Shown one piece after another: positions 5,225 through 38,510 of a DNA stretch of 51,722 nt. Source of the DNA: Acidisphaera sp. GTDB lineage: Bacteria; Pseudomonadota; Alphaproteobacteria; Acetobacterales; Acetobacteraceae. How positions within the stretch are numbered: the stretch's first letter is position 1; every line of letters starts with the position of its first letter. The translations under genes and the position numbers were made by a program. The DNA is taken from positions 1 through 51,722 of the forward strand of contig JAFAYM010000067.1 of assembly GCA_019240395.1 (NCBI GenBank), written 5' to 3'. A model generated the notes under the pieces. The model searched no databases. It worked only from the letters and a program-made list of their open reading frames with translations, and had not been told where the DNA came from.

Positions 5225-7173
<1,949 letters not shown>

Positions 7174-23326: not shown

Positions 23327-23932
23327 TTATAGCTGATGGTGTGCCTCCGGCCCCAGAACCGCTTCGCGCATGCGCGCCTGCAGGTACGCCCCGTCGCGCG
23401 GCGGCAGCACGAGCGGCAGACTGGCGGCGTCGACCTTGGCAACCGCGAACAGCGGGCCGGCGCCGGCGTGGATGGCCTCGCGCAGCGGCGCGACCTGATC
23501 CGCCGAGGTCACCAGCATGGTGCGCGCGAAGCCGGCGCCGCGGGCGATGGCGACGAGATCGACACCGTATCGGGTGGCGGTTTCCTGCATGCCGGTCTCG
23601 CCGTAGTGTTCATTGTCCTGCACCAGGATGGCGAGGTTGGGCGGCCGCTTCACCGCGATGGTGGCCAGGCTGCCGAGACCCATGAGCATTTCGCCATCCC
23701 CGGTGATCACCAGCACGGTGCGGCGGGGTTGGGCGATGGAGAGGCCCAGGCCGATCATCGCGGCCGCGCCCATGCCGCCCCAGAGCGGCAGATTTTCCGG
23801 GCAATCGCCGACCGCCGTGATGTCCCAGGCCGGCGCGCCGAGTCCGGCAACGACCAGCATGTCGCCGCGATCGGCCAGCACGGCGCGGCACAGCTCCCGC
23901 CGGTCGAGCGCCCGGGTATTTGCAGTCGCCAC
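23327..23932 (-). CDS. Thiamine-diphosphate decarboxylase, beta (PP) subunit, sulfopyruvate/phosphonopyruvate type
   Basis: A 201-residue C-terminal half of a split TPP enzyme, starting at GTG 23932. The ThDP/Mg motif is GDGEMLMGLGSLATIA...QDN (GDG and the paired Asn position) at about residues 78-106. AGLGAPAWDI and LPLWGGMGAAAMIGLGLSIA are typical of sulfopyruvate decarboxylase beta (ComE) and phosphonopyruvate decarboxylase. EHYGETGMQETATRYGVDL follows. It begins 4 bases after the alpha stop. The pair should decarboxylate a 2-oxo acid with an acidic tail, such as sulfopyruvate to sulfoacetaldehyde. The substrate is inferred from family only. Confidence 0.83.
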   Translation of the reverse strand: MATANTRALDRRELCRAVLADRGDMLVVAGLGAPAWDITAVGDCPENLPLWGGMGAAAMIGLGLSIAQPRRTVLVITGDGEMLMGLGSLATIAVKRPPNLAILVQDNEHYGETGMQETATRYGVDLVAIARGAGFARTMLVTSADQVAPLREAIHAGAGPLFAVAKVDAASLPLVLPPRDGAYLQARMREAVLGPEAHHQL

Positions 23933-23936
23933 CGCC

Positions 23937-24488
23937 TCAATCCTTTCCGAAGGTCTTCGCGCCGAGCACGCGCTGCCCGATCAGGGTCGCGGTCGGGCGG
24001 AAGGTGTTGAAGGCCATGCGGATGGTGGCATTCACCGTGGGTGCGACATCCTCCGGCCGGTCGGCGCGGCGCACGATGGTGCCCATCGCCTCCAGCACGG
24101 TCTGCGTGGCGCTGCCCATCGGCACCTGTGCCGGGTTGAACTCGCCGAAATCGCCCCGCATGGTCACGATCATCGGCATCGGCGTGCGATGCAGGATGCC
24201 GAGCGAGAGCATGTTGATGCAGTTGCCGACGCCGGAGCTCTGCATCAGCAGCACGCCCTTGTCGCCGCCGAGCCAGGCGCCGAGGAGCATGGCGATGCCT
24301 TCCTCCTCGGTGGTCAGGGTGACGACCTGCATGCTGTCGTCGGCGAGACAGCGGCGGATCAGCCGGGAGTGCCCGGCGTCGGGCACCAGCGCCACCTGCC
24401 GGATGCCGTGGGATTTCAGCAGGTCGTAGATCTGATCCGGCCAGGTCGCGGCGTCATCCGGCGCCTTGTCGAGTTGCTCCGCCTGCAT
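23937..24488 (-). CDS. Thiamine-diphosphate decarboxylase, alpha (PYR) subunit, sulfopyruvate type
   Basis: A 183-residue N-terminal half of a split TPP enzyme. I take ATG 24488, about 9 bases after AGGGA; ATG 24533 would add 15 residues without a ribosome binding site and overlap the LysR gene. The PYR-domain catalytic glutamate is in VVTLTTEEEGIAML near residue 58. QVALVPDAGHSRLI, GVLLMQSSGVGNCINML and PMIVTMRGDFGEFNPAQ resemble ComD/sulfopyruvate decarboxylase alpha. It lies 37 bases after the LysR gene and immediately before its beta partner. Confidence 0.83.
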   Translation of the reverse strand: MQAEQLDKAPDDAATWPDQIYDLLKSHGIRQVALVPDAGHSRLIRRCLADDSMQVVTLTTEEEGIAMLLGAWLGGDKGVLLMQSSGVGNCINMLSLGILHRTPMPMIVTMRGDFGEFNPAQVPMGSATQTVLEAMGTIVRRADRPEDVAPTVNATIRMAFNTFRPTATLIGQRVLGAKTFGKD

Positions 24489-24525
24489 TCGTCCGATCCC
24501 TGTCACGCGATGGCATCGCTCGCAG

Positions 24526-25452
24526 TCAATCATGAAGCAGCGCGCCGGGCCATGCCCCGGAGCGCACCAGGTCGCGTACGGTGGTCCGCACGAGGTCGGC
24601 GAGGGTCGCCACGGCGGCGCCGCGCCGCTCGGCCGGCGGCTCCATCAGGCTGAGGCCCCAGAAGACGCGCGGGCGGAGCGGCCATGCCTGCAACTCCCCG
24701 AGCCGGAGATCGCCGAGGAAGGCGCCATGGGTGAGCAGGCTGCAGCCGAGACCCGCCTTGATCAGCGCCCGGATGATCAGGTGATCGTCGACCTCCATCC
24801 GCACATCGACCTTGACGCCGCGCCGCGACAGCCAGCCATCGAGCAGGCGGCGCGAGGCGTTCGGGCGCCCGGGCAGGATGAGCGGCACGCCGGCGAGGTC
24901 CTGCATGCGGATGTGCTCGCGTCGCGGCGTCACGGCGGCGCGCTTGCCGACCAGGAACACCTCCTCACGCGCCAGCCTGGTGAGCTTGAAGCCGGGCTGC
25001 GGCAGCGGGTCATGCAGGCAGGCGAGATCGACCCGGCCGCGCACCAGCCACTCCTGGATGTAGACGCTGAAACCGGCGGCGATCTTGAGGAAGATGTTGG
25101 GATAGGCGGCGGCGCAGCGCCGGGTCAGCTCGGGGAGCAGGAAGTTGCCGGCGGCCGGCGGCACCGCCAGGGTCACCGTGCCGGACGGACCCGCCTGGCC
25201 GCGGCTGATGTCCTCCCGCGCCTGATCGAACTGGCGCAGGATGTCCTGGCTGCGCTCGAGCAGCGTGCGCCCGGCATCCGTGAGGCTGACGCCGTGGCTG
25301 TGGCGCAGGAACAGCGGGCGGCCGAGTTCCTGCTCCAGAGCGCGGATCTGCCGGCTGACCGCGGGCTGGGAGATGCGCAGCAGGTCGGCGCCGCGGCTGT
25401 AGCTGCCGCATTCGGCGACCGCCTGGAAGTAGCGCAAGGCGCGCGTCTCCAT
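24526..25452 (-). CDS. LysR-family transcriptional regulator
   Basis: A 308-residue regulator. The winged helix-turn-helix spans residues 1-60 (RALRYFQAVAECGSYSRGADLLRISQPAVSRQIRALEQELG), followed by the LFLRHSHGVSLTDAGRTLL wing. The C-terminal effector domain includes GTVTLAVPPAAGNFLLPEL and LGCSLLTHGAF. It resembles the Nac/CynR-like branch. It heads the minus operon with the TPP enzyme and pduO and diverges from the luciferase-like gene 129 bases away. Like most LysR proteins it probably controls that divergent promoter and its own. The effector is unknown. Confidence 0.92.
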   Translation of the reverse strand: METRALRYFQAVAECGSYSRGADLLRISQPAVSRQIRALEQELGRPLFLRHSHGVSLTDAGRTLLERSQDILRQFDQAREDISRGQAGPSGTVTLAVPPAAGNFLLPELTRRCAAAYPNIFLKIAAGFSVYIQEWLVRGRVDLACLHDPLPQPGFKLTRLAREEVFLVGKRAAVTPRREHIRMQDLAGVPLILPGRPNASRRLLDGWLSRRGVKVDVRMEVDDHLIIRALIKAGLGCSLLTHGAFLGDLRLGELQAWPLRPRVFWGLSLMEPPAERRGAAVATLADLVRTTVRDLVRSGAWPGALLHD

Positions 25453-25581
25453 TGCCGAAGGGCGCTCCGTGAATCATCGAACGGGTTATTTGACCTATGC
25501 CCGATATGCCTTGGACGCAAGGCGGCCGGGGCCGCTAACCTCGCCGCGTCGGCGCAGGCGCAGCACGGGAGATGGCTGGTT
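25453..25581. promoter_or_regulatory. Divergent LysR / luciferase-like gene promoter region
   Basis: This 129-bp spacer contains a local AT-rich island at 25485-25510 with TTGACC at 25490-25495 and a repeated TATGCC (25496 and 25505 regions). Such an island is the expected LysR operator site. I could not define a clean T-N11-A dyad. GGGAG at 25568-25572 is a candidate ribosome binding site for the GTG at 25582. Confidence 0.4.
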
Positions 25582-26679
25582 GTGAAATTCGGCCTGATGA
25601 CGCAGATCCAGATGCCGCGGCCGTGGGGCGAGAACGCCGAACTGCTCGCCTACCACCACGCGCTTGACCAGGCCGAGGCGGCCGAGGCCGCGGGGTTCGG
25701 CTATTTCTGGATCACCGAGCAGCACTTCTTCCTGGAGATCGGGCACAGCCCGTGCCCGGACATGCTGCTCTCGGCGATCAGCCAGCGCACGTCGCACATC
25801 CGCCTCGGCTTTGCCGTCGTGCTGATGACGGTGAACAACCCGTTCTCCATCGCCGAGCGGGTCGCCACGCTTGATCTGCTGAGCAACGGCCGCGTAGAGT
25901 TCGGCATGGGCCGGGGTTCTACGCCCTACATGGTCGATGCCTTCGGCGTCACCCGCCCCGAGGAGCGGGAGCGGGCACAGGAGGCGACCGAAGCGGTCAT
26001 GCAGATGTTCGCGGAGGAGCGGTTCAGCGGCTTCAAGGGCAAATACTTCGACCTGCCGCCGCGCCACGTGCTGCCGCGCCCGCTGCAGCGGCCTCACCCG
26101 CCGCTCTGGGCCGCCGCCTCCAACCTCGCCAGCTATGAGCGCGTCGGCCGTCAGGGGCTCGGGGTGATCGGCGTCACCCGCAACAGCGTCGCCGAGACGC
26201 GCGATGCGATCCGTGTGTATCGCGAGGCGATCCGCGCCGCCGATCCGCGCGGGTTCGTCGGCGCCGGCGCCAACGAGCAGGTCGCCGGATTTGCGCTGAC
26301 CTACTGCCACGAGGACGACCGGACCGGGCGCGACACGGCCTGCGCCGCCGCGCGCTGGTACAACGGCGACAACGACGCCGAGCTGAACTCGGTGCGCTTC
26401 GCCACCGCCGGCGGCGTGAACGCCGTGGTGGAGAAATTCCGCAACCGCAGCAACGACGAGCTCATCGAGGACGGCATGGCGATGGGCGGCAACCCCGACA
26501 CGATCTGCCGGATCGTCGAGAAATGGGCGGAGGCGGGTCTCGACCAGATGATCTTCGTGCTGCAGGCCGGGCGCACCACCCATGAGCAGGTGATGCGCGC
26601 CATCGACCTGATCGGCGCGCAGGTCATCCCGCGCTTTGCGAGCAAACCCGCTGCGGCGGAGCAGGAGTGGCAGAGGTGA
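25582..26679 (+). CDS. LLM-class flavin-dependent oxidoreductase (luciferase-like)
   Basis: A 365-residue protein. The open frame extends further upstream, but protein-like sequence begins at GTG 25582 (VKFGLMTQIQMPRPWGENAE). The luciferase-like TIM barrel shows in AEAAGFGYFWITEQHF, ISQRTSHIRLGFAVVL, HP/PFSIAERVATLDLLSNGRVEFGMGRG and AIDLIGAQVIPRF at the end. The family uses reduced FMN to oxygenate aldehydes, alkanesulfonates or other substrates, or F420 in some groups. It overlaps the next gene by GTGA, and that gene starts an SsuABC-type importer. A desulfonation or ether/amine oxygenation step is therefore plausible. No flavin reductase is visible nearby. Confidence 0.88.
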   Translation: MKFGLMTQIQMPRPWGENAELLAYHHALDQAEAAEAAGFGYFWITEQHFFLEIGHSPCPDMLLSAISQRTSHIRLGFAVVLMTVNNPFSIAERVATLDLLSNGRVEFGMGRGSTPYMVDAFGVTRPEERERAQEATEAVMQMFAEERFSGFKGKYFDLPPRHVLPRPLQRPHPPLWAAASNLASYERVGRQGLGVIGVTRNSVAETRDAIRVYREAIRAADPRGFVGAGANEQVAGFALTYCHEDDRTGRDTACAAARWYNGDNDAELNSVRFATAGGVNAVVEKFRNRSNDELIEDGMAMGGNPDTICRIVEKWAEAGLDQMIFVLQAGRTTHEQVMRAIDLIGAQVIPRFASKPAAAEQEWQR

Positions 26680-27653
26680 CGCTGAAAACCCTCTTTGCAG
26701 GCGTGCTGGGTGCGATGGTGCTGCTCGGCAACGCCGCGATGGCGCAGCCGGCGAAGCTCGACCTTGCGGCGTCGAACACGTGGTGGGGACAGATCCCCCT
26801 GATGGTCGCGATCGACAAGGGGTTTTTCCACGAGCAGGGGATCGACACCGAGCTCAAGAACATCCCGGCATCGGGCGACCGGATCGCCGCTCTCACCGCC
26901 GGCTCCGTCGCCTTCAGCAATCTCGGCCGCATCGCCGCCATCGTCGAGATGGCCCGCGGCAACCAGAGTTTCTACTTCTTCGCCAATGTCGACGACTCGC
27001 CGGGCAACGAGGGCTGCTGGGCGCGCCCAGGCTTCGACAGCTTCAAGGCCCTGCGCGGGAAGAAGGTCGCCGCCAACACCTCCGCGGAAATCACCATGAA
27101 CGGCCTGCTCGCAAACGAGGGCATGACCGAGAAGGACATCCAGTTCGTCAATCTCCCGGGGCCGGAGATGGCGGCGGCGCTGGCCAAGGGCGACGTCGAC
27201 GCGGCCTGCGTGTGGGAGCCGCTGTTCACCGGCGTGAAGGACGCGGCGCCCGGCGGCAAGCTGCTCGGCACCGACATGGACACGCCGAACTACAAGAAGT
27301 TTGGCACCATGGCCTCGCCCGACGTCATGATCATCTCGCGCAAGCTGGTGACCGAGCAGCCGGAGCTGGCGCGCAAGCTCGCCGTGGCGATCTTCCAGGG
27401 CGTCGCCTTCACCAACGCGCATCCGCAGGAGACCGCCGAGACGGTGGCGCACTATTTCCGCAAGTCACCGGAGGAGGTGCTGGCGGCGATGAAGACCTTC
27501 AAGTATTTCGGCCAGGAGGGCTGGCCGGAGCACATGAAGCTGCATGCCGGGCAGATGCAGTTCCTGGCCCAGTGGCTGTACGACAACGGCAAGATCCCCT
27601 CGCTGCCTGATACTTCCAAGTGGGAGAGTGTCAGCTTCCTCCCCCAACCCTGA
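26676..27653 (+). CDS. ABC transporter substrate-binding protein, SsuA/TauA-like (NMT1 family)
   Basis: A 325-residue exported protein. I choose GTG 26676, which overlaps the upstream stop (GTGA) and lies 8 bases after AGGAG at 26663-26667; GTG 26667 is an alternative. Residues 1-23 are a signal peptide (LFAGVLGAMVLLGNAAMA). The mature part reads KLDLAASNTWWGQIPLMVAI, DKGFFHEQGID, AALTAGSVAFSNLG, LRGKKVAANTSAEITMNGLL and GDVDAACVWEP, the layout of sulfonate, taurine and nitrate binding proteins. Together with the permease and ATPase downstream it forms one importer, interrupted by a palindromic element at 27654-27797. Confidence 0.9.
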   Translation: MTLKTLFAGVLGAMVLLGNAAMAQPAKLDLAASNTWWGQIPLMVAIDKGFFHEQGIDTELKNIPASGDRIAALTAGSVAFSNLGRIAAIVEMARGNQSFYFFANVDDSPGNEGCWARPGFDSFKALRGKKVAANTSAEITMNGLLANEGMTEKDIQFVNLPGPEMAAALAKGDVDAACVWEPLFTGVKDAAPGGKLLGTDMDTPNYKKFGTMASPDVMIISRKLVTEQPELARKLAVAIFQGVAFTNAHPQETAETVAHYFRKSPEEVLAAMKTFKYFGQEGWPEHMKLHAGQMQFLAQWLYDNGKIPSLPDTSKWESVSFLPQP

Positions 27654-27797
27654 GAGACCGTTCGATAATGCTACTGCGGCGGCCATCTGACGCGGCTTTC
27701 TGCGCTTCCGGTGCTCACGGCCGCACATGGCCGCTCCGCTCCGGTTCTCGAAAGCCGCGCCATCTGACTCGCCGTAGCGCATTCTCAAACGATCTTT
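27654..27797. repeat. 144-bp palindromic element inside the ABC operon
   Basis: The gap between binding protein and permease genes is nearly filled by an imperfect inverted repeat. The inner arms cgcggctttc (about 27692-27701) and gaaagccgcg (about 27750-27759) match perfectly. The outer arms, around CGTTCGATAATGCTAC on the left and GTAGCGCATTCTCAAACGAT on the right, are imperfect complements. The motif CCATCTGAC occurs as a direct repeat beside both inner arms. No coding potential is seen. It resembles a MITE- or BIME-like insertion that can fold into a long hairpin. Confidence 0.65.
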
Positions 27798-27800
27798 GAG

Positions 27801-28616
27801 GTGAGCCAGGCCGTCCTCGGCGCCCAGGTGACGCCGGCAGGGCGGCGCCTGCGCACCAGCCAGTTCCTGCTGGCGCTGAATTTCGCGGCGGTCGCCATCG
27901 TTCTGCTGCTGTGGTGGGCGGCGACGCGGCTGGGCTGGATCGCCCCGATCTTCCTGCCCTCGCCCGGAGACGTGCTGCACGCCGGGCGGATCACCCTGGA
28001 GCAGGGCGAGCTGCTGACAGACGTGCTGGTGTCGTCGCGGCGTGTCTTTCTCGGGTTTGCGCTCGCCGCCGCGATCGCCGTGCCGCTCGGCGTGGTGATG
28101 GGGGTGTGGCGGCCGGCGAAGGCGATCATGGACCCGTTCGTGTCGCTGCTGCGCCCGCTGCCCTCGATAACCTGGATCCCGCTCTCCATCCTGTGGCTCG
28201 GCATCGGCGAGATGCAGAAGGTCGCCATCGTCTTCATGGGATCGTGGATCTACATCCTGCTCTACACGCTGGAGAGCACGCGGCGGGTGGATCCGCTGCT
28301 GCTGCGCGCCGCGCGCAACCTCGGCGCGTCCGACGTCGCGGTGATGCGCGAGGTGATCCTGCCCGGCGCGCTGCCCGGCATAATCTCCGGCCTGAAGGTC
28401 ACGCTCGCGATCTCCTGGTCCTGCGTGCTGACCGCGGAGATGATCGCCGCGCAGAACGGGCTCGGCGCGCTGATCTGGCAGGCCAAGGACTGGGGCAATC
28501 TGCCGCTCGTGCTGGTCGGCATGCTGTGCATCTCGCTCACCGTGCTGGTGGCGGACTGGCTGGCGCTGCGCCTGGAGTGGCTGCTGCTGCCCTGGGAACG
28601 CGCCCGCCGTGGCTGA
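27801..28616 (+). CDS. ABC transporter permease, SsuC/TauC-like
   Basis: A 271-residue membrane protein beginning at GTG 27801, directly after the palindromic element. About six hydrophobic spans are visible, the first being FLLALNFAAVAIVLLLWWAA. The segment FLPSPGDVLHAG, the PFVSLLRPLPSITWIPLSIL stretch and the coupling loop ARNLGASDVAVMREVILPGAL are typical of SsuC/TauC/NrtB permeases. It overlaps the ATPase gene by 8 bases. The only ribosome-binding candidate is the GAG at the edge of the repeat, so the element may limit its translation. Confidence 0.9.
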   Translation: MSQAVLGAQVTPAGRRLRTSQFLLALNFAAVAIVLLLWWAATRLGWIAPIFLPSPGDVLHAGRITLEQGELLTDVLVSSRRVFLGFALAAAIAVPLGVVMGVWRPAKAIMDPFVSLLRPLPSITWIPLSILWLGIGEMQKVAIVFMGSWIYILLYTLESTRRVDPLLLRAARNLGASDVAVMREVILPGALPGIISGLKVTLAISWSCVLTAEMIAAQNGLGALIWQAKDWGNLPLVLVGMLCISLTVLVADWLALRLEWLLLPWERARRG

Positions 28617-29427
28617 GGCCGGCGCGCCCATTCTCTCAGCCCGGCATGTAACGAAAACCTTCGGCGCCGGCGAGGCGGGCAGCGTCGTTGCCATCCGCGA
28701 TCTGTCAATGGATGTGATCGAAGGAGAGTTCGTCTGCCTGCTCGGCGCCTCGGGCTGCGGCAAGACGACGATGCTGGCGCTGTTCGCCGGCTTTCTGCTG
28801 CCCACCGCCGGGCAGGTGCTGCTGCGCGGCGCGCCGATCACCGGCATCGAGCCGCGCTGCGGCATGGTGTTCCAATCCTACGCGCTGTTTCCCTGGAAGA
28901 CGGTGCGCGGCAATGTCGAGTTCGGCCTGAAGATGCAGGGCGTCGGCCGCGCGGCGCGGCGTGAGGCCGGCCAGCGCTTCATCGACCTGGTCAAGCTGAC
29001 CGGCTTCGAGGACCGCTATCCCGTCGAGTTGTCCGGCGGCATGCAGCAGCGCGTGACGCTCGCGCGCATCCTTGCCGCCAACCCCGAGGTGCTGCTGATG
29101 GACGAGCCGTTCGCGGCGCTGGACGCGATGACCCGGCAGGTCATGCAGGAGGAGGTGCTGCGCATCCACGCCGCCAGCCGCAAGACCACCGTGTTCATCA
29201 CCCATTCCATCGACGAGGCGCTGATCCTGTCCGACCGCATCGTGGTGATGTCGGCGCGCCCTGGCCGCATCAAGGCGGTGCTGCCAAACAAGCTGCCGAC
29301 GCCGCGCCACGTCTCGGTGCAGCTGTCGCCGGACTACACCGCGCTGAAGGCGCAGGTCTGGCGGCTGGTGGAGAGCGAGCTGCAGGCCCATGACGAAACC
29401 AGCCGTGCCGTCGCGCCTAAACCCTGA
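28609..29427 (+). CDS. ABC transporter ATPase, SsuB/TauB-like
   Basis: A 272-residue ATPase starting at GTG 28609, overlapping the permease end. Walker A is GASGCGKTTML, the Q-loop is VFQSYALFPWKTV, the signature is LSGGMQQRVTLARIL, Walker B is VLLMDEPFAALD, and the switch is VFITHSIDEAL. LFPWKTVRGNVEFGL is the usual SsuB/TauB/NrtD pattern, and the SARPGRI segment near the end supports it. It energises the importer formed with the two preceding genes. Confidence 0.92.
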   Translation: MAEAGAPILSARHVTKTFGAGEAGSVVAIRDLSMDVIEGEFVCLLGASGCGKTTMLALFAGFLLPTAGQVLLRGAPITGIEPRCGMVFQSYALFPWKTVRGNVEFGLKMQGVGRAARREAGQRFIDLVKLTGFEDRYPVELSGGMQQRVTLARILAANPEVLLMDEPFAALDAMTRQVMQEEVLRIHAASRKTTVFITHSIDEALILSDRIVVMSARPGRIKAVLPNKLPTPRHVSVQLSPDYTALKAQVWRLVESELQAHDETSRAVAPKP

Positions 29428-29445
29428 TCCACACGAGGTCGCACC

Positions 29446-30603
29446 ATGTCGAAACATGATTTCACGCCGGCGGAATTCGCCGACCGCCTCGCCCGCCTGC
29501 GCCGCGCCATCGGGGAGGCTGGGCTCGACTGGCTGCTGGTGCTGCATCCCGTCTCGATACGCTGGCTGATCGGCCAGGACACCAAGAGCTACACGGTGTT
29601 CCAATGCCTGCCGGTTTCCGCCGATGATTCGAAACTGATCATGTTCACCCGCGGCACGGAACAGAGCGAGTTCGCCGCCGACACCATGGCCGAGGAGCTG
29701 CGCTGTTACAACGGCGCCGAGCCCGAGGACCCAATGGAGGGTTTTTCCCGCCTGCTCGATGAGCTCGGCATCCGCGGCAAGCGCGTCGGCATGGAGGTGC
29801 CCGGCGGCTATCTGCAGCCCGGCCATTACCTCAGGCTGAAGGCGATGCTGGGTGACGCACTGGTCCAGGAACCGTGCACGGTGCTGATGGCGTTGCGCGC
29901 CGTGAAATCGCCGGCCGAGATCGCCTATGTCAGGCAAGCCAGCGACATCGCCGCGCTGGCGCTGCAGGCGCTGATCGGCGCCGTTGCGGAGGGGCGCTCG
30001 GAACTGGAGCTGGCGGCAGCGGCGTATCACGCGCTGCTGAGCCACGGCAGCGGTTTGCCCGCGAGCACGATGAACCTGATGACCGGCGAGCGCAGCGCCT
30101 TCGCGCTCGGCGGCCCCACCGAACGGCGCATGCGCCGCGGCGACACCGGCCTCGTCGAGATGGGCGCGGCGCGGCGGCGCTACACCTCGACGCTGGGCCG
30201 GCAATGGAATCTCGGCGAACCCTCACCGCGGCTGCGCGAGCTGCACCAGGTTATCCTCGATGCGTCGGATGCGTGCCTCGCCGAGATGCGCGCCGGCGTG
30301 CCGGCGATCGTGCCGCACGAGGCCTCCAAGCGCGTCATCGCGCAGGCCGGGCTCGACCGATACCGCGCGCACACCACGGGGTACGGCATGGCGCCGGGGT
30401 TTCCGCCCTCCTGGGGCGAGAGCCCGAACATGTTCGGCGGCAGCACCGACATCCTGCGCGCCGGCATGGTGGTGTCGGTGGAGCCCGCCATCTTCCTTCC
30501 CGAGGAGGGCCTCGGCGTGCGGCTGATCGACAATGTCCTGGTCACCGACAGCGGCGTCGAAATTCTGTCGCGCACACCGCGGGAGCTGATCGTCGTCGAT
30601 TGA
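29446..30603 (+). CDS. M24-family (pita-bread fold) protein lacking the metal ligands
   Basis: A 385-residue protein. The N-terminal creatinase/prolidase-like domain (residues 1-150) is followed by the pita-bread domain (MRAVKSPAEIAYVRQAS onward). The five metal-ligand positions of M24 aminopeptidases read E238 (usually Asp), T249 (Asp), Y313 (His), E346 (Glu, kept) and I361 (Glu). The His preceding the GDxxxV segment in creatinase (HNPVT region) is also absent (ALGGPTERR). It is therefore unlikely to be a standard Xaa-Pro peptidase or creatinase. A metal-free hydrolase of a small amide, in the sense of ectoine hydrolase-like relatives, or a binding role is possible. It sits between an SsuABC importer and an FAD amine oxidase. 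Confidence 0.8.
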   Translation: MSKHDFTPAEFADRLARLRRAIGEAGLDWLLVLHPVSIRWLIGQDTKSYTVFQCLPVSADDSKLIMFTRGTEQSEFAADTMAEELRCYNGAEPEDPMEGFSRLLDELGIRGKRVGMEVPGGYLQPGHYLRLKAMLGDALVQEPCTVLMALRAVKSPAEIAYVRQASDIAALALQALIGAVAEGRSELELAAAAYHALLSHGSGLPASTMNLMTGERSAFALGGPTERRMRRGDTGLVEMGAARRRYTSTLGRQWNLGEPSPRLRELHQVILDASDACLAEMRAGVPAIVPHEASKRVIAQAGLDRYRAHTTGYGMAPGFPPSWGESPNMFGGSTDILRAGMVVSVEPAIFLPEEGLGVRLIDNVLVTDSGVEILSRTPRELIVVD

Positions 30604-30613
30604 GGCCGAAGCC

Positions 30614-31930
30614 GTGCCACCGGCCGGCCGCGGACCGCTCGCCGATGACACGCCGCTTCCCGCGGCCTACGCGGCGGCGGCGCCGGCGCTGAACCGCCCG
30701 GCGCTGGCGGGAACCCGGCGCTGTGACGTCGCCATCGTCGGCGGCGGCTTTTCCGGATTGTCGGCGGCGCTGCATCTGGCGCAGGCGGGCTGCGCCGCGA
30801 CTGTGCTCGAGGCGCGGGAAATCGGCTGGGGCGGCTCGGGCCGCGCTTTCGGCCAGGTCGTGCCTTATGCCAAGCACGACGAGCGCCATATCCTGGCGAG
30901 CTTCGGCCCCGACTGGGGCGAGCGGCTCATCACCGGGTTGGCCGGCGGACCCGATCTGGTCTTCCGGCTGATCGCCGAGCACGGCATCGAATGCGAGCCG
31001 GTCCGCACCGGCCTGATCTTCGCCGCGCATGCGCGCAGCGCCGAGCCCGCGCTCGAACGGCGCGCCGTCTTTTGGCAACAGCGCGGCGCCGATGTGGCCA
31101 TGCTGCACGATGCGGCGCTGGCAACCATGACCGGCACCGAATTCTACAAGGCGGCGCTGCTGGACCGGCGCGGCGGCAGTCTGAACCCGCTGGCCTATGC
31201 GCGCGGCCTGGCCCGGGCGGCGCTGGCCGCCGGCGCCGCGGTTTACGAGAACACCAGGGCCCTCGCGCTGCTTCCCACCGCGCAGGGATGGACGCTGCGC
31301 ACGCCGGCGGGCGAGCTTGCGGCGCGGCGGGTCGTTCTGGCCACCGACGCCTACACCGACGATCTGTGGCCCGGGCTGCGCCGCTCTCTCCTGCCGCTGC
31401 GCGGCTACCAGCTGGTCAGCGAGACGCAGCCGGAAGACATCCGTCGCAGGATCCTGCCGGGTGGCCAGGCGCTGACCGACACGAGACGCCTCTATTCCGG
31501 CGTGCGGATGCGGCGCGACGGACGATTGCACGTCAGCGTGGACGGACCCCCCTTCAGCAATCGCGGCGCGGCGGACGCCGGCCTCGCCACCGCGCGCGTG
31601 CGGGCGCTGTTTCCCGACATCGCGCCACCGCGCTGGGAGCACTCGGTCGCCGGCTGGGTCGGCATGACGGCCGACCAGTATCCGCATGTGCATCGCCTGG
31701 CGCCGGGGCTGATCGCGGCACTCGGCCTGAGCGGCCGCGGCATCGCCTTCGCGACGCTGCTCGGGCGCGAGATCAGCCTGCGCGTGCTCGATCGGCCGCA
31801 GCAGGACTGGATGCTCCCCGACACGAAGCTGCGGCCGATCCCGGCCGGACCGCTCGCCCGCCTGCTCCTGCCCGCGCTCATCGGCTGGTACCGCGCCCGC
31901 GACACTGTCGAGTTGCGTCGCGGGCGATAA
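30614..31930 (+). CDS. FAD-dependent amine/amino-acid oxidoreductase, copy 2 (DAO family)
   Basis: A 438-residue flavoprotein from GTG 30614, about 9 bases after GAGG. The dinucleotide fold is DVAIVGGGFSGLSAALHLAQAG near residues 37-58, then GWGGSGRAFGQVVPYAKHD. VAGWVGMTADQYPHVHRL and ALGLSGRGIAFATLLGREI form the C-terminal FAD-binding part. Architecture matches gamma-glutamylputrescine oxidase/OrdL relatives and the gene at 8172-9464, though sequence identity to it looks modest. It lies 10 bases after the M24 gene and 69 bases before hyuA3. A role in oxidising an N-substituted amino acid made or released by those neighbours is likely; the substrate is not known. Confidence 0.86.
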   Translation: MPPAGRGPLADDTPLPAAYAAAAPALNRPALAGTRRCDVAIVGGGFSGLSAALHLAQAGCAATVLEAREIGWGGSGRAFGQVVPYAKHDERHILASFGPDWGERLITGLAGGPDLVFRLIAEHGIECEPVRTGLIFAAHARSAEPALERRAVFWQQRGADVAMLHDAALATMTGTEFYKAALLDRRGGSLNPLAYARGLARAALAAGAAVYENTRALALLPTAQGWTLRTPAGELAARRVVLATDAYTDDLWPGLRRSLLPLRGYQLVSETQPEDIRRRILPGGQALTDTRRLYSGVRMRRDGRLHVSVDGPPFSNRGAADAGLATARVRALFPDIAPPRWEHSVAGWVGMTADQYPHVHRLAPGLIAALGLSGRGIAFATLLGREISLRVLDRPQQDWMLPDTKLRPIPAGPLARLLLPALIGWYRARDTVELRRGR

Positions 31931-31999
31931 CTCCCGCGGCGCCTTTGCAAGCCGTGGCGCCTGCGCTAGTCAGAAAAGAGCGTGGAATGGTAGCGCGGC

Positions 32000-34054
32000 A
32001 TGGCCTGGCGTATCGGCGTCGATTCCGGCGGAACATTCACCGATGCCTGCCTGTTCGAGGAGGGCAGCGGGCGCGTCGAAGTCTGGAAGCTGGCGTCCAC
32101 GCCGGACGATCCGTCGCGCGCCATTGCGCAGGCCGTCGAACAGGGGCTCGATCGCGTCGGCGCCGCGGCCGAGACCGTCGCGTATTTCGGCCATGGCAGC
32201 ACGGTCGGCACCAATGCGCTGATCCAGCATCGCGGCGTGCCGACCGGGCTGATCACCACGGCGGGGTTTCGCGACCTGCTGGAGATCGGCCGGCAGACCC
32301 GCCCGGACCTCTACGATTTCCAGGTGGACAAGCCGCCCGTGCTGGTGGCGCGCAACCTGCGCCTGGAAGTGCCGGAGCGCGTGCGCCACGACGGCACGGT
32401 GGAAACCGCGCTCGACGAACGCGCCGTGCGCGAGGCGGCGCGCGCACTCAAGGCCGCCGGTGTCGCGGCGGTGGCGATCTGCTTCCTCTACGGCTTCATC
32501 CGCCCCGAGCACGAAGCCACGGCGCGCCGCATCGTCGCCGAGGAGTTTCCCGAGGCCTTCGCCTGCGCCAGCCACGAAGTCGCGCCGGAGTTCCGCGAAT
32601 ACGAGCGGCTCTCCACCGCCGTGGTGAATGCCTATCTCGGCCCGATCATGCAGGGCTACATCAGCCGGCTCGGCGAGCGCCTGGCGCAGCTCGGCCTCGC
32701 CGCCCGCCCGCACCTCACGCAATCCAACGGCGGCGTCATCGGCTTCGAGCAGGCGGCGCGGCTGCCGGTGCGCAGCGTGCTGTCCGGCCCGAGCACCGGG
32801 GTCATCGCCGCACAGGCGCTCGGCCGCATGGCCGGGCTCGCCGACCTCATCACCTTCGACATGGGCGGCACCAGCACCGATGTCGCGCTGCTGCGCGGCA
32901 ACGAAGTCCGCCTGGCCAGCGAGGCGACGGTGCACGGCTACCCGATCAAGGCGCCGATGCTCGACATCAACACCGTCGGCGCCGGCGGCGGCTCGATCGC
33001 CACGATCGACAGCGGCGGCCTGCTGAAGGTCGGGCCGCGCAGTGCCGGCGCCGCCCCCGGCCCGGTCTGTTACGACCGCGGCAATACCGAGCCGACCGTC
33101 ACCGACGCCAACGTCGTGCTGCAGACGTTGAACCCGACGCACCTGCTGGGCGGACGCATGCCGGTGCGCCAGGACCTCGCGCGCGCGGCGATCGCGCGGC
33201 TCGCCGAGCCCCTCGGCATGGACGTCATGGCGACGGCGCAGGGCATCGTCGCGGTGGTCACCGCCAACATGGCGCGCGCCATCCGGGTGATCAGCGTGCA
33301 GCGCGGCCACGATCCTCGCGACTACACCCTGGTGGCGTTCGGCGGCGCCGGCCCGCTGCATGCGGCGCGGCTGGCCCGCGAGCTCGACATCGGCAGCATC
33401 CTGGTACCGCGCAGCCCCGGCATCCTCTGCGCCATGGGCCTGCTGCTCACCGATCTGCGGTCCGACTTCGCCAGCACGCGGTTGCAGCTTCTGTCCGGCG
33501 CCTCGCTGCCGAAATTGGAGAGCGCGTTTACCGCCCTGCTCGACAAGGCCGAGACCTGGTTCGCCGAGGAGGGCATCGCGCCGGCAGCCCGCCGCGTCGT
33601 TCGCACCGTCGACATGCGTTACGAGGGACAGAACTACGAACTCGCCATCCCGGTGCCGCCCGGCCCGATCACCGCGGCGAGCCTGGACGTTCTCGCCGAA
33701 GGTTTCGCCGAGGCGCACCGACGCATGTACGGCTTCGTCGCCGAGGGCGAGCCGGTGCAGCTCGTCACCTATCGCGTCGAGGCGGCCGGGGTGGTGCCGA
33801 AGGCCGCCTTCCCGCCGCGTGACGATGCCGGGCCGGACGCCGCGGCAGCGTTGCTCGGCCGGCGCGACGCCTGGCTGCCGGAGGCCGGCGGCTTCGTGTC
33901 CTGCCCGATCTACGACCGGGAAAGGCTCGATTGCGGCAACCGCATCGCCGGCCCGGCGATCGTCGAGCAGATGGACGCGACCACGTTCATTCTACCGGGC
34001 ATGACGGCGCGCGTTGATGCTACCTTGAACCTCATCCTGAAGACCGCGTCATGA
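32000..34054 (+). CDS. hyuA: Hydantoinase A / oxoprolinase subunit, copy 3
   Basis: A 684-residue ASKHA ATPase subunit beginning at ATG 32000. The upstream gap holds a GGCGCC...GGCGCC pair near 31940 but no firm promoter. Motifs are IGVDSGGTFTDACLF, GHGSTVGTNALIQHRG, EYERLSTAVVNAYLGP, LTQSNGGVIGF, FDMGGTSTDVALLRG and GPRSAGAAPGPVCYDRGNTEP. This is the widespread N-methylhydantoinase A type, distinct from copies 1 and 2, which have DIGGT at the first loop. It overlaps hyuB3 by ATGA. With the Dpp transporter and ggt downstream, 5-oxoproline released from gamma-glutamyl compounds is one plausible substrate. Confidence 0.93.
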   Translation: MAWRIGVDSGGTFTDACLFEEGSGRVEVWKLASTPDDPSRAIAQAVEQGLDRVGAAAETVAYFGHGSTVGTNALIQHRGVPTGLITTAGFRDLLEIGRQTRPDLYDFQVDKPPVLVARNLRLEVPERVRHDGTVETALDERAVREAARALKAAGVAAVAICFLYGFIRPEHEATARRIVAEEFPEAFACASHEVAPEFREYERLSTAVVNAYLGPIMQGYISRLGERLAQLGLAARPHLTQSNGGVIGFEQAARLPVRSVLSGPSTGVIAAQALGRMAGLADLITFDMGGTSTDVALLRGNEVRLASEATVHGYPIKAPMLDINTVGAGGGSIATIDSGGLLKVGPRSAGAAPGPVCYDRGNTEPTVTDANVVLQTLNPTHLLGGRMPVRQDLARAAIARLAEPLGMDVMATAQGIVAVVTANMARAIRVISVQRGHDPRDYTLVAFGGAGPLHAARLARELDIGSILVPRSPGILCAMGLLLTDLRSDFASTRLQLLSGASLPKLESAFTALLDKAETWFAEEGIAPAARRVVRTVDMRYEGQNYELAIPVPPGPITAASLDVLAEGFAEAHRRMYGFVAEGEPVQLVTYRVEAAGVVPKAAFPPRDDAGPDAAAALLGRRDAWLPEAGGFVSCPIYDRERLDCGNRIAGPAIVEQMDATTFILPGMTARVDATLNLILKTAS

Positions 34055-35691
34055 GCCAGGCGAACGCACTCAAGAACGCACCGGAGCTCGACCCGATCAC
34101 CGTCGAAGTGATCGGCAGCGCACTCAACTCCATCGCCGAGGAGATGGGCGAGGCGCTGGTGCGCGCCAGCTACTCCACCAACATCAAGGAGCGGCGGGAC
34201 TGCTCGACCGCGCTGTTCGACAGCGACGGACGCACGCTCTGCCAGGCGCAGCATATCCCGATGCATCTCGGCAGCTTCATCGACATGCTGCCGCACATCC
34301 TCAAGCGCCATCCCGCGGAGGAGCTGCGCCCGGGGGACGTGTTCATCGGCAACGACGCCTACGAAGGCGGGGGCACGCATCTGCCGGATTTCGTGCTGCT
34401 CGAGCCGATCTTCGCCGAGGGCACGCTGGTCGCCTGGGCGGTCAACACGGCGCACCACGCCGACTTCGCCGATCGCGGCCACGCCCACATCTACCAGGAA
34501 GGGCTGCGCATCCCGCCGGTGCGGCTCTATCGCGCCGGCGTGCTGCAGGCGGACGTGCAGGCGCTGATCCTGCTGAACTGTCAGGTGCCGCGCGAGCGCC
34601 TGTCCAATCTGCGCGCGCAGATGGCCGCCAACCGGCTCGGCGTTGCCCGCATGACGGCGCTCTGCGCGAAATACGGCACCTCCGTGGTGCTCGCCGCCGG
34701 CCGCGCCCTGCTCGACTACGCCGAACGCAAGATGCGCGCCGGCATCGGCGCCATCCCCGACGGCACGTACCGCTTCTCCGACGTCTACGAGAACCCGGAA
34801 GTGCCGGAGGGCCTGGAATTCGGCTGCGAGATCACCGTCGCCGGCGAGACGATGCACCTGCACTTCACCGCGCCGCCGCAGGTGCGCGCCGGGCTGAACA
34901 TGACGCGCACCGCCCTGCTGGCGACGGTGTTCTACGCCGTCAAGACGATCGTCGATCCCGGCGTGCTGGCCAATGCCGGCCTGGCGCGGCCGCTCACCGT
35001 CACCGCGGCGGAGGGCACGGTGGTGAGCTGCGTGCATCCCGCGGCGGTGAACGGACGCTGCAGCACCTGCCAGCGCGTCGTCGACCTGATCCTCGGCGCG
35101 CTCGCCCAGGCGGTGCCGGAGCGGGTGATCGCGGCGACCAACGGCGCCAACACCGTCTGCCTGTTCGACGGCGCATTCGCCGACGGCACGCCGTGGATCT
35201 ACCTCGAGACGATCGGCGGCGGCTCGGGCGCGCGGGCGACCAAGGACGGGCTGGACGGCGTGCAGGTGCACATGACCAACACCTCCAACCTGCCGGTCGA
35301 GGCGTTCGAGATCGAGTATCCGCTGAGCCTGCTGCGCTACGAACTGGTGGACGGCTCGGGCGGCGCCGGCCGGTTCCGCGGCGGCATGGGCCTGCGCCGG
35401 GTCTATCGCGCCGACGCGCCCTGCCGCCTGCGCGTCGACGGCTCGCGCCTGCGCACCGCACCCTGGGGCCTTGCCGGCGGGGGACCCGGCGCGACGGGCT
35501 CGTTCGATTTCGGCGGCGCCGTCGCCGATCGCGGCGTCGTCACCCTCGCACCCGGCCAGATCGTCACCGTGACGACGGCAGGCGGCGGCGGCTACTATCC
35601 GCCCGAGCAGCGCGACCCCGCCGCCGCGGCCCGCGACCTGGCGGAAGGGCGCCTCGATACGAAACGGCCCTCTCCTCCCGCGGCTCCCTAG
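34051..35691 (+). CDS. hyuB: Hydantoinase B / oxoprolinase subunit, copy 3 (standard length)
   Basis: A 546-residue HyuB subunit, ATG 34051 overlapping the hyuA3 stop (ATGA). Motifs are ASYSTNIKERRDCSTALFD, QAQHIPMHLGSFIDMLP, FIGNDAYEGGGTHLPDF, ANTAHHADF-like VNTAHHADFADRG, IYQEGLRIPPVRLY, SGGAGRFRGGMGLRR and TTAGGGGYYPPEQRD. Length is typical of N-methylhydantoinase B. The C-terminal extension of HyuB1 and HyuB2 is absent. The Dpp-type permease starts 7 bases after its stop, so enzyme and importer are probably cotranscribed. Confidence 0.93.
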   Translation: MSQANALKNAPELDPITVEVIGSALNSIAEEMGEALVRASYSTNIKERRDCSTALFDSDGRTLCQAQHIPMHLGSFIDMLPHILKRHPAEELRPGDVFIGNDAYEGGGTHLPDFVLLEPIFAEGTLVAWAVNTAHHADFADRGHAHIYQEGLRIPPVRLYRAGVLQADVQALILLNCQVPRERLSNLRAQMAANRLGVARMTALCAKYGTSVVLAAGRALLDYAERKMRAGIGAIPDGTYRFSDVYENPEVPEGLEFGCEITVAGETMHLHFTAPPQVRAGLNMTRTALLATVFYAVKTIVDPGVLANAGLARPLTVTAAEGTVVSCVHPAAVNGRCSTCQRVVDLILGALAQAVPERVIAATNGANTVCLFDGAFADGTPWIYLETIGGGSGARATKDGLDGVQVHMTNTSNLPVEAFEIEYPLSLLRYELVDGSGGAGRFRGGMGLRRVYRADAPCRLRVDGSRLRTAPWGLAGGGPGATGSFDFGGAVADRGVVTLAPGQIVTVTTAGGGGYYPPEQRDPAAAARDLAEGRLDTKRPSPPAAP

Positions 35692-35698
35692 GCTCCGC

Positions 35699-36649
35699 AT
35701 GGCCTGGGCGATCCGCCGCGTCGGCCTGTCGATCCTGCTGATCTGGATTGCCGCCAGCATCGTCTTCCTCGCCATCCGTCTGGTGCCCGGCGATCCAGCC
35801 GAGCTGCTGATGGCGCAGGGCGGCGCGCCGGCCGATCCGGGAGCCGTCGCGGCGCTGCACACGCAGCTCGGCCTCGATCGGCCCATGGCCGCCCAGTATG
35901 TCGACAGCTTCCGCCGCCTGCTGCACGGCGATCTCGGCGAGAGCCTGCAGGACGGCACGCCGGTCGCTGGCGAGATCATGCGGCGGCTGCCGCGCACGCT
36001 CGAGCTGATCGGCACGGCGGCGGCGATCGCGCTGCTGATCGGCGTGCCGGCCGGGCTCGCCGCGGCGCTGCGCCGGGGCGGCGCCTTCGACCGCGCCAGT
36101 TCGGCCGTCTCGACGCTCGGGCTGGCGACGCCGATCTTCGTCATCGGCACGCTGATCGTCCTGATCTTCGCGCAGTTGTTGCGCTGGGTGCCGGCGGGCG
36201 GCTACGTGCCTCTGGCGCAGGCTCCGCTGCGGCATTTCGGGCTGCTGCTGATGCCGGCCTGCGCGATTGCGTTCGGTCTCGCTTCGACGATGTTTCGCAT
36301 GACGCGCACGGCGGTGCTGGACGTGTCGCAGCGCGACTATGTCCGCACGGCGCGGGCCAAGGGCGTCGCGCGCCGGCGCGTTCTGATCCACCATGTGCTG
36401 CGCAACGCCCTGATGCCGGTGGTCACCGTGCTGGCGCTGCAGCTCGGCACGCTGCTCGGCGGGACGGTGCTGGTGGAGTACGTGTTCAACTACCCCGGCC
36501 TCTCCGGAATGCTGGTCGATGCGGTGAACGCGCGCGACTACCCCGAGGTGGAGGGCATCGTGCTGGTGATTTCGATCCTGTTCGTCACCCTCAACCTGGC
36601 GGTGGACCTGCTCTACGCCGCGCTCGACCCCCGGGTCCGCCAGGGATGA
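35699..36649 (+). CDS. Dipeptide/oligopeptide-type ABC permease, DppB-like
   Basis: A 316-residue membrane protein. The opening AIRRVGLSILLIWIAASIVFL, then RLVPGDPAELLM, is the DppB/OppB hallmark. TVLVEYVFNYPGLSGMLV near the end is also typical, as is the coupling loop TARAKGVARRRVLIHHVL. It starts 7 bases after hyuB3 with no clear Shine-Dalgarno sequence, so translational coupling is likely. It pairs with the permease half of the next gene. Confidence 0.93.
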   Translation: MAWAIRRVGLSILLIWIAASIVFLAIRLVPGDPAELLMAQGGAPADPGAVAALHTQLGLDRPMAAQYVDSFRRLLHGDLGESLQDGTPVAGEIMRRLPRTLELIGTAAAIALLIGVPAGLAAALRRGGAFDRASSAVSTLGLATPIFVIGTLIVLIFAQLLRWVPAGGYVPLAQAPLRHFGLLLMPACAIAFGLASTMFRMTRTAVLDVSQRDYVRTARAKGVARRRVLIHHVLRNALMPVVTVLALQLGTLLGGTVLVEYVFNYPGLSGMLVDAVNARDYPEVEGIVLVISILFVTLNLAVDLLYAALDPRVRQG

Positions 36650-36656
36650 GCCGCCG

Positions 36657-38510
36657 GTGCGGCGGCTGAACTGGCTGCCGGTCGCCGCCGTCGCGGCGAT
36701 CGCCATCGTGGCGCTGGCGACGCCGCTGCTGCCGCTGCCCGATCCGCTCGCCATGGATATCGCCGGCCGCCTGGCGCCGCCGTCGCGCGCGCACTGGCTC
36801 GGTCAGGACCAGTACGGCCGCGACGTGCTCAGCCGATTGCTCTGGGGCTCGCGCGTGTCGCTCGGGGTTGCCGTCCTGGCCTGCGGCGCCGCCGTCGCGC
36901 TCGGCACCGCGCTCGGGCTGGCCGGCGGCTTTCTCGGCCGCCTCGCCGAGCTGCTGGCACTGCGCAGCATGGACATCGTGCTCTGTTTTCCGCCGCTGCT
37001 GCTGGCGCTGCTGGTCGTCACCCTGCTCGGTCCGGGTGCCGCCACCCTGGTGCCGCTGCTGGCGCTGCTCTATCTGCCGGGCTTCGTGCGGGTGGTCTAT
37101 GCCGGCGTGCTCTCGGTCCGCTCGCAGGATTATGCCGAGGCGATGCGCGCGCTCGGCGCGACGCGGCTGCGCATCATGACACGCACCATCCTGCCCAATA
37201 TCGGCGGCCCGATCCTGGTGCAGTTCAGCCTGACCATGGCCTCGGCCATCGTGCTGGAATCCGGCCTGTCCTTTCTCGGCCTCGGCGTGGTGCCGCCGGC
37301 GCCTTCCTGGGGCCTGATGATCGGCGCCGCGCGCTCCACCATGGCGCAGGCGCCGCTCCTGCTGCTCTGGCCGTGCCTGGCGCTCAGCCTGACCATCCTG
37401 GCGATGAACGCGCTCTGCGATGCGCTGCGCGATGCGGTCGATCCGCAGCGCGCGCCCCGCCCGGCGGGACTGCGCGGGACGCTCGCCCCACACGCGCCGA
37501 GCCTGGCGCCGGACGGCGATGCGCTGCTCGCGCTGCGCGGCCTGACCGTGGAAATCGACACGCCAGCCGGCGCGATCCGCCCGGTGCGCGACGTGTCGCT
37601 GCGCCTGTCGCCGGGCGAGACCCTGGCGCTGGTCGGCGAGAGCGGCTCGGGCAAGTCGCTGACGGGTCTCGCCGCCATGGGCCTGCTGCCGCCGGCCGCG
37701 CGCGTCGTCGCCGGCGACATCCGGGTGGATGGGCGCGACCTGCGGCGCCTCGACGAGACGGCGCTGCGCCGGCTGCGCGGCACCGCCATGGCGATGGTGT
37801 TCCAGGACCCGCTGAGCAGCCTCAATCCGGTGCACCGCATCGGCGCGCAGATCGGCGAGGCGGTGCGCGCCCATCACCGCCTGCCGGCCCGCGCGGTCCG
37901 GGAGCGCGCGGTCGGCCTGCTGCGCCGGGTCGGCATTCCCGACCCCGAGCGCCGCGCCCGCAGCTTCGCCCACGAACTGTCCGGCGGCATGCGCCAACGC
38001 GCGATGATCGCCATGGCGATCGCCAACGACCCGCGCCTGCTCATCGCCGACGAGCCGACGACGGCGCTGGACACCACGGTGCAGGCGCAAATCCTGGAGC
38101 TGATCAGCGGTCTGAAGCGGCAGGGCGGCATGGCCATCCTGTTCATCACCCACAGCCTGCCGGTGGTGGCCGAGATCGCCGACACGCTGGCGGTGATGTA
38201 CGCCGGCGAGATCGTCGAGCAGGGTGCCGCCGCGGCGCTCTTCGCCCGGCCGCTGCATCCCTACACGGCCGCGCTGCTGGCCAGCGTCCCCGGCGAGGAC
38301 GGCGCGCTGCCGCGCAGCATCCCGGGCACCGTGCCGGCGCCGCACGACCTGCCCCCGGGCTGCCGCTTCGCCCCGCGCTGCGCGCACCGGCGCGACGCCT
38401 GCGAGGCGGCGCACCCGCCGCTGGCGCCGGTCGGCGACGACCGCCTGACGCGCTGCATCCGCTGGCGGGATTTCGCCGGCACGCGCCCTTCCGCGGAGAC
38501 CGCGGCGTGA
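36657..38510 (+). CDS. DppC-DppD fusion: peptide-type permease joined to ATPase
   Basis: A single 617-residue frame from GTG 36657. Residues 1-265 are a DppC-type permease: [19 protein letters not shown], six membrane spans, [20 protein letters not shown] and [18 protein letters not shown] Pro/Ala-rich linker (265-285) follows. Residues 285-617 are a DppD-type ATPase: Walker [42 protein letters not shown], Walker [13 protein letters not shown] and switch FITHSLPVV. The C-terminal [14 protein letters not shown] cysteines resemble the Fe-S/oligopeptide_trans motif of DppD. In most bacteria these are two genes. The fusion has no internal stop. It overlaps the next ATPase gene as GTGA. Confidence 0.92.

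Follow-up and report, generated by a model that had tools for sequence, protein, structure and literature searches.

The gene at 29446..30603 (+) of the window, the whole 51,722-nucleotide stretch of Acidisphaera sp. DNA analyzed here, is predicted to encode a cytosolic, metal-independent C-N hydrolase of the creatinase/ectoine-hydrolase class, and to represent an undescribed family. We place the probability of this reading at about 0.55. The protein probably helps in the digestion of a nitrogen-containing compound. The gene starts with ATG and encodes 385 amino acids. Pfam recognized Creatinase_N (46.4 bits) and Peptidase_M24 (125.8 bits) in the protein, both above cut-off. The third-position GC of the ORF is 0.88, and GC across its codon positions follows the pattern expected of a real gene here. 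A search of open-access literature with general terms found no description of this family among the titles and abstract openings listed.

The ligand columns were set by alignment with orthologues, with metal-free paralogues from the same genome and with four metal-complete M24 proteins, also from the same genome. They read E238, T249, Y313, E346 and I361, where the peptidases possess D, D, H, E and E. Four of the five columns are changed, as the first-pass annotation had noticed; the aspartic acid to glutamic acid change at 238 is conservative and E346 is retained. A restored Asp/His/Glu set in other columns was also looked for, and the alignment with the in-genome DDHEE proteins showed that neighbouring columns do not rebuild it. 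The same alignment ruled out misalignment as the source of the odd columns. The protein has the fold and the Creatinase_N domain of M24B proteins and lacks their five-ligand set (D, D, H, E, E). The residue after the last ligand column is an aspartic acid (D362), as in the in-genome peptidase L051 (RLEDAI). H309 corresponds by offset to His350 of aminopeptidase P, a second-shell histidine. Column 221, taken as the histidine column of creatinase and aminopeptidase P, is leucine in the window protein and lies within ALGGPTERR, in agreement with the earlier remark that the creatinase histidine is missing there.

Scanning the species-genome collection with a sequence pattern yielded 13 orthologue loci, and an alignment of 18 orthologues down to 48% identity (A1, 385 columns) was prepared. 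At E <=1e-70 the A1 profile matched 14 of 397 family genomes (13 at >=628 bits, one at 241 bits) and 11 of 385 class genomes (9 at >=404 bits), and at 1e-75 the own genome alone matched among 398 phylum genomes. The family is therefore thinly spread in Alphaproteobacteria. Plastoroseomonas hellenica (Acetobacteraceae, L043) and genome G547 (L094) possess identical M24 proteins, and a homologue with 52% identity is located on a Mesorhizobium plasmid (L098). The P. hellenica protein is of the His221 form, Reyranella soli (L039) has a Leu221 orthologue, and Bradyrhizobium sp. LHD-71 is a further culturable carrier. In the phage collection 17 records matched, with 22-32% identity among the 10 listed.

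The E-T-Y-E-I set is found in 30 of 33 distinct orthologue rows, query included, and none of the 33 has the full metal set. Among the exceptions, L038 runs into a contig end after E-T-Y, L089 has serine in column 249 and leaves homology further on, and L084 (G456:C285:4110-5267) reads ETYVT and has lost the otherwise fixed Glu346. Genome G456 possesses three M24 copies, and the two besides L084 keep ETYEI. In A1, 76 of 385 columns are invariant including all five ligand columns, for which the chance is 2.7e-4 if columns are assumed independent. The replacing residues are thus conserved among orthologues, a check that had been proposed for this protein. The NG86 dN/dS of 10 orthologue pairs ranged from 0.07 to 0.38; these ratios are rough, as the synonymous distance is close to 1 in several pairs and YN00 failed for 8 of the 10. 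The open frame, the conserved columns and dN/dS together ruled out the pseudogene reading, in agreement with the earlier view that loss of function by decay is unlikely.

Conservation also bears on the question whether the protein is a catalyst. Loss of four metal ligands and of the creatinase histidine may hint at a pseudoenzyme, a sensor, carrier or scaffold that only binds a partner or the imported compound. Non-peptidases with the M24 fold exist, among them PA2G4/Ebp1, as described in PMC3888471, and Spt16, which matched the structural model of the window protein with Z 31.1-32.8. Against this, E238, H309, Y313, E346 and R359 are invariant in the 18 orthologues of A1, which binding alone would hardly demand, and the surrounding genes encode catabolic enzymes and an importer. 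H309 is present in all 37 aligned rows. A binding protein, the second possibility offered in the first-pass annotation, is therefore rather unlikely and less likely than an enzyme, as the polar active-site columns do not vary in these orthologues.

The own genome (G000) contains 11 M24 proteins, of which, according to the alignments, four possess the metal set and seven do not. One of the seven is the ectoine hydrolase DoeA (L044), identified with 803.3 bits, above the curated cut-off. The six metal-free proteins besides the window protein, DoeA included, are encoded on contigs C47, C161, C187, C253 and C280 (two), and their column sets are EGYPS, EPYIS, EMYVS, ECYHG, EPYMT (DoeA) and ERYYS. 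The ECYHG-type protein has arginine in the histidine column. To place the family, a tree of 26 rows comprising nine window-family rows, 13 other metal-free M24 proteins and the four metal-complete proteins was constructed. It separated the 22 Tyr313 proteins from the four metal-complete ones with 92/91 support, which falls below the 95/80 star of the program in a tree with long branches, while the window family itself received 100/100. In the columns after 205, E238, Y313 and W323 are invariant in the nine family rows; they are found in 12, 13 and 11 of the 13 other metal-free proteins, respectively, and in none of the four in-genome metal-complete peptidases. T249, G251, P317, M329, I361 and N363 occur in the family alone, and E346 is common to the family, the peptidases and a single row among the 13 other metal-free proteins. 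The window protein carries the class residues and groups with the metal-free, DoeA-like proteins. Another metal-free protein, L024 (G105:C108), is of the type DNYEV, with Asp kept in column 238 and Tyr313 present, and it branches outside both the window family and the DoeA group.

Since E238 and Y313 are common to DoeA and most other metal-free M24 proteins, the metal loss is a state of the class and not a peculiarity of the window protein. Metal-free M24 enzymes are already a known kind, represented by ectoine hydrolase DoeA and creatinase. The earlier suggestion of a metal-free hydrolase with new chemistry is hence upheld in its first half, as the protein is probably metal-free; the replaced ligands alone do not point to new chemistry, E238 and Y313 being class-wide. 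A single metal held by E238, E346 and H309 in a rearranged site is improbable. These three potential ligands are invariant in A1, and Mn2+ and Mg2+ enhance the creatinase of Alcaligenes faecalis, but this enzyme is reported to keep more than 80% of its activity with EDTA (PMC7568399, for both statements), and columns 249, 313 and 361 are threonine (serine in one row), tyrosine and isoleucine with few exceptions (L038, L089, L084).

An AF2 model of the window protein built from 13 rows had a mean pLDDT of 85.8, with a weak loop at 314-329 (pLDDT about 42). The fold is intact, as had been assumed, and the top structural match of the model is DoeA (6twk, Z 40.3, rmsd 3.7, 376 aligned residues), tied with PepE (4ege, Z 39.8); creatinase (1chm) gave Z 38.0. 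Foldseek ranked Xaa-Pro peptidases first. Plain sequence search favoured prolidase (1wy2, 124.9 bits) over DoeA (6twk, 88.6 bits) and creatinase (1chm, 36.4 bits), and in the profile search creatinase was at rank 23. As DoeA tops the structural Z while Foldseek and sequence search favour peptidases, fold and overall similarity do not decide between a peptidase and an amidinohydrolase; the residues do. The best NCBIfam match of the protein is DoeA, over residues 4-385, yet its 138.8 bits are far below the TIGR02993 cut-off of 613 bits, and the own genome encodes a separate DoeA with columns EPYMT and His221 against ETYEI and Leu221 in the window protein. It is thus highly improbable that the protein is simply an ectoine hydrolase or a creatinase, and the identity with ectoine hydrolase was ruled out on the score and on the DoeA encoded elsewhere in the genome.

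The absence of the creatinase-type histidine is not a feature of the whole family. Among 32 distinct family rows, column 221 is leucine in 14, histidine in 17 and isoleucine in one. The Leu221 rows (16 with duplicates) form one clade with 100/99 support. The Ile221 row (L095) is sister to four histidine rows (100/99), and a further histidine row (L079) is placed outside them (95/92). Because L095 nests among histidine rows apart from the leucine clade, the histidine would, by parsimony, have been lost at least twice within the family. Positions 50, 170, 176, 221, 236, 254 and 348 fully separate leucine from histidine rows. From histidine to leucine rows, Q50 becomes T or M, N236 (14 of 17) becomes L (12 of 14), F254 (15 of 17) becomes W and P348 becomes A, G or N. 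Such clade-wide differences can be inherited baggage. The Ile221 row departs from the histidine rows at 50 (Arg), 176 (Leu) and 236 (Thr) and retains the histidine-type residues at 170, 254 and 348. A second loss accompanied by changes at 50 and 236 therefore argues for a pocket change coupled to the loss of the histidine. On these residue patterns the phrase new chemistry would be justified only in a narrower sense, namely that the leucine clade lost the acid/base histidine besides the metals.

A dispensable histidine column in one clade also agrees with a non-hydrolytic enzyme, i.e. a lyase, isomerase or decarboxylase built on the M24 scaffold. The DMSP lyase DddP is such a case (Z 31.1 to 4s01), but according to PMC4108388, which describes it as a lyase on this fold, it retains the metal ligands, and both metal-free members with solved structures, DoeA and creatinase, hydrolyse C-N bonds. 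This alternative is unlikely, and hydrolysis of a C-N bond is preferred.

The gene resides in a run of ten co-directional genes (25582 to 38510) with gaps of -13, 147, -8, 18, 10, 69, -4, 7 and 7 bases. A LysR-type regulator (24526..25452, -; LysR_substrate 127.7 and HTH_1 85.3 bits) is divergent from the operon. The first gene (25582..26679, +) encodes a luciferase-like (LLM) flavin monooxygenase of about 360 amino acids (Bac_luciferase, 159.8 bits), with its start at GTG 25582 or ATG 25597. The longer ORF 24466-26679 (+) of 737 amino acids is an artefact, its first half being antisense to the LysR gene and the Bac_luciferase match covering residues 376-693. The monooxygenase gene is followed by an importer composed of an NMT1/SsuA-like substrate-binding protein (26667..27653, +; Pfam NMT1 89.2 bits, SsuA_fam 125.2 bits against a cut-off of 163.5), a TauC/SsuC-like ABC transporter permease (27801..28616, +) and an ABC transporter ATPase (28609..29427, +), the latter two assigned from Pfam/NCBIfam. 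Downstream of the M24 gene are a FAD-dependent amine oxidase of the DAO family (30614..31930, +), for which the best curated model is L-pipecolate oxidase AmaA with 279.4 bits, below the cut-off of 600, and a HyuA/HyuB-type lactam/hydantoin hydrolase pair (32000..35691, +; Pfam Hydantoinase_A and Hydantoinase_B). Dipeptide-type transporter genes complete the run; in ORF 36657-38510 (+) a dipeptide-type permease (residues 83-264) is fused to its ATPase (311-469). An AstE_AspA gene (EutE/DoeB deacylase) is absent among these ten genes. With an importer, a luciferase-like monooxygenase, a FAD oxidase and HyuA/HyuB genes in it, the operon is catabolic, as the first-pass annotation had proposed.

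Other parts of the window hold related genes. Altogether three HyuA/HyuB-type pairs are present in its 52 kb, at 10642-14723 (-), 18666-22678 (+) and 32000-35691 (+); where scanned with NCBIfam they were nearest to caprolactamase CapA/CapB, well below the cut-offs. Two of the pairs have a DAO-type FAD oxidase nearby (8172-9467 and 30614-31930), and one has an OYE-type flavin reductase (9464-10645). Directly upstream of the LysR gene is a split TPP enzyme (23330-24533, -) that resembles the alpha and beta subunits of sulfopyruvate decarboxylase, with matches of 120.9 and 120.8 bits, below the cut-offs of 147.95 and 221.5.

The neighbourhoods of the orthologues showed which of these partners are shared. 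By tblastn, a luciferase-like homologue with at least 57% identity to the L032 copy was found in 22 of 33 distinct loci. It is present at 13 of 14 Leu221 loci, the exception (L031) being cut upstream, and at 9 of 19 others. Gene calling within 6 kb found it at 21 loci, missing L096. Several of the loci are short. No second luciferase-like copy above 31% identity was found in the own genome, and random placement would therefore rarely give co-location with the M24 gene. A FAD oxidase homologue is near the M24 gene at 8 of 33 loci (7 Leu, 1 His), and the importer of the leucine clade (clusters c5 and c3) is also found near the histidine-form L083. Relatives of the TPP pair (clusters c13 and c15) are found in 4 and 3 of 33 neighbourhoods, respectively, window included, the other loci being L042, L082 and L034. 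The window HyuA/HyuB pair (32000-35691) had no homologue in the 36 other orthologue loci (tblastn, 1e-30; several loci short) and was set aside as a pathway partner of the M24 protein. Counting against this decision, an ORF about 6.7 kb upstream in L035, at the outer end of that locus, is 54% identical to the HyuB-like ORF of the window at 20729.

Two earlier-branching members possess other companions. In L086, an amino-acid-type ABC importer is near the M24 gene, and a creatininase-family gene (6288-7070, +; PF02633, 227.7 bits) is located two genes before it, between two substrate-binding genes. The Mesorhizobium homologue (L098), annotated 'Xaa-Pro peptidase family protein', has as neighbours RidA-family, amino-acid ABC importer and aspartoacylase-family (AstE_AspA) genes along with a PLP-dependent gene annotated threonine/serine dehydratase. 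A 399-amino-acid protein with three RidA-type stretches (L098 7802-9001, +) abuts the M24 homologue. PMC3187862 assigns EutE and EutB of ectoine clusters to the aspartoacylase and threonine/serine dehydratase-type families. From the importers and the lineage-specific partners at these loci, these proteins seem to take part in the catabolism of small nitrogen compounds that the cell takes up, with partners varying by lineage. An amidine-type or ring-opened substrate is consistent with the creatininase and the ectoine-like companions.

A possible mechanism can be outlined from the conserved residues. E238, which aligns with Glu255 of DoeA, and E346 would place their carboxylates in the emptied metal site, where they may hold or attack a C-N centre that is electrophilic or positively charged, for example an amidine, a guanidine or a cyclic amide-like group. 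In the Leu221 clade, H309 is the likely general acid/base in place of the creatinase-type histidine. The product is perhaps an amine, which could then be oxidized by the neighbouring FAD oxidase. The substrate of this clade probably differs from that of the His221 rows or is less polar. A more far-reaching and tentative proposal is that the Leu221 clade cleaves the C-N bond with neither metal nor creatinase-type histidine, by means of E238, H309 and E346 after a coordinated change of the pocket (50, 221, 236, 254, 348), and that it is the signature enzyme of an undescribed route for a nitrogen compound, together with the importer, the luciferase-like monooxygenase and the FAD amine oxidase. 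An amidino- or N-alkyl-sulfonate as the substrate of this clade would be a guess, suggested by the sulfonate/taurine type of the importer and by the sulfopyruvate-decarboxylase-like pair upstream. Against it, none of the SsuA and sulfopyruvate-decarboxylase-like matches reaches its curated cut-off, and for the luciferase-like proteins several LLM groups gave better matches than alkanesulfonate monooxygenase did.

The analysis marks out a conserved metal-free M24 branch with a clear residue signature, for whose ETYEI-type members the annotation 'Xaa-Pro peptidase family protein' is misleading. The family also provides a natural experiment in which the column-221 histidine was, by parsimony, lost at least twice, to leucine in a clade and to isoleucine in a single row, with the remaining site nearly fixed. 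This makes catalysis in metal-free M24 enzymes directly testable.

Among the known M24 systems, DoeA/EutD (6twk, 6twj, 6yo9; TIGR02993) shares with the window protein the M24 fold devoid of the metal set, glutamic acid in column 238, tyrosine in column 313, tryptophan in column 323 and a match over the full length. It differs in operon partners, in column set (EPYMT with His221 against ETYEI with Leu221) and in sequence, with 23-24% identity in the structure alignment. Counted along the L044-6twk and L044-query alignments, E255 of 6twk falls in column 238 and H238 in column 221; of these DoeA active-site columns, the former is kept as E238 and the latter is Leu221. The PDB titles for ectoine hydrolase comprise substrate-bound and product-bound forms, and in a 2020 structure paper on EutD, Glu255 is reportedly bonded covalently with ectoine. 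The own-genome DoeA lacks E346, H309 and R359 and keeps the histidine of column 221, and the window protein is the opposite. Because E346, H309 and R359 are of the peptidase type and this DoeA has none of the three, the DoeA mechanism is not transferable as it stands. DoeA itself is reported as creatinase-like and of the M24 family in PMC3187862.

Creatinase (1chm, 1kp0, 7yto) resembles the window protein in its pita-bread fold (Z 38.0, 37.7 and 37.6), with 18-21% identity. Its catalytic His232, which we take to be column 221, is read as leucine in the window protein through the offsets of DoeA and aminopeptidase P. The creatinase product sarcosine feeds a flavin oxidase. Relative to E. coli aminopeptidase P, using offsets from the residues given in PMC5774706, Glu383, His350 and Arg404 are kept as E346, H309 and R359, while Asp260, Asp271, His354, Glu406 and His243 are replaced by E238, T249, Y313, I361 and L221. 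The in-genome peptidases L051 and L101 agree with these offsets, with His, His and Arg in columns 221, 309 and 359, and the other two in-genome metal-complete proteins deviate there (Phe, Ser, Lys and His, Asp, Gln). DMSP lyase DddP is similar to the window protein in combining the M24 fold with non-peptidase chemistry and, as described in PMC4108388, differs from it in retaining the dimetal ligands.
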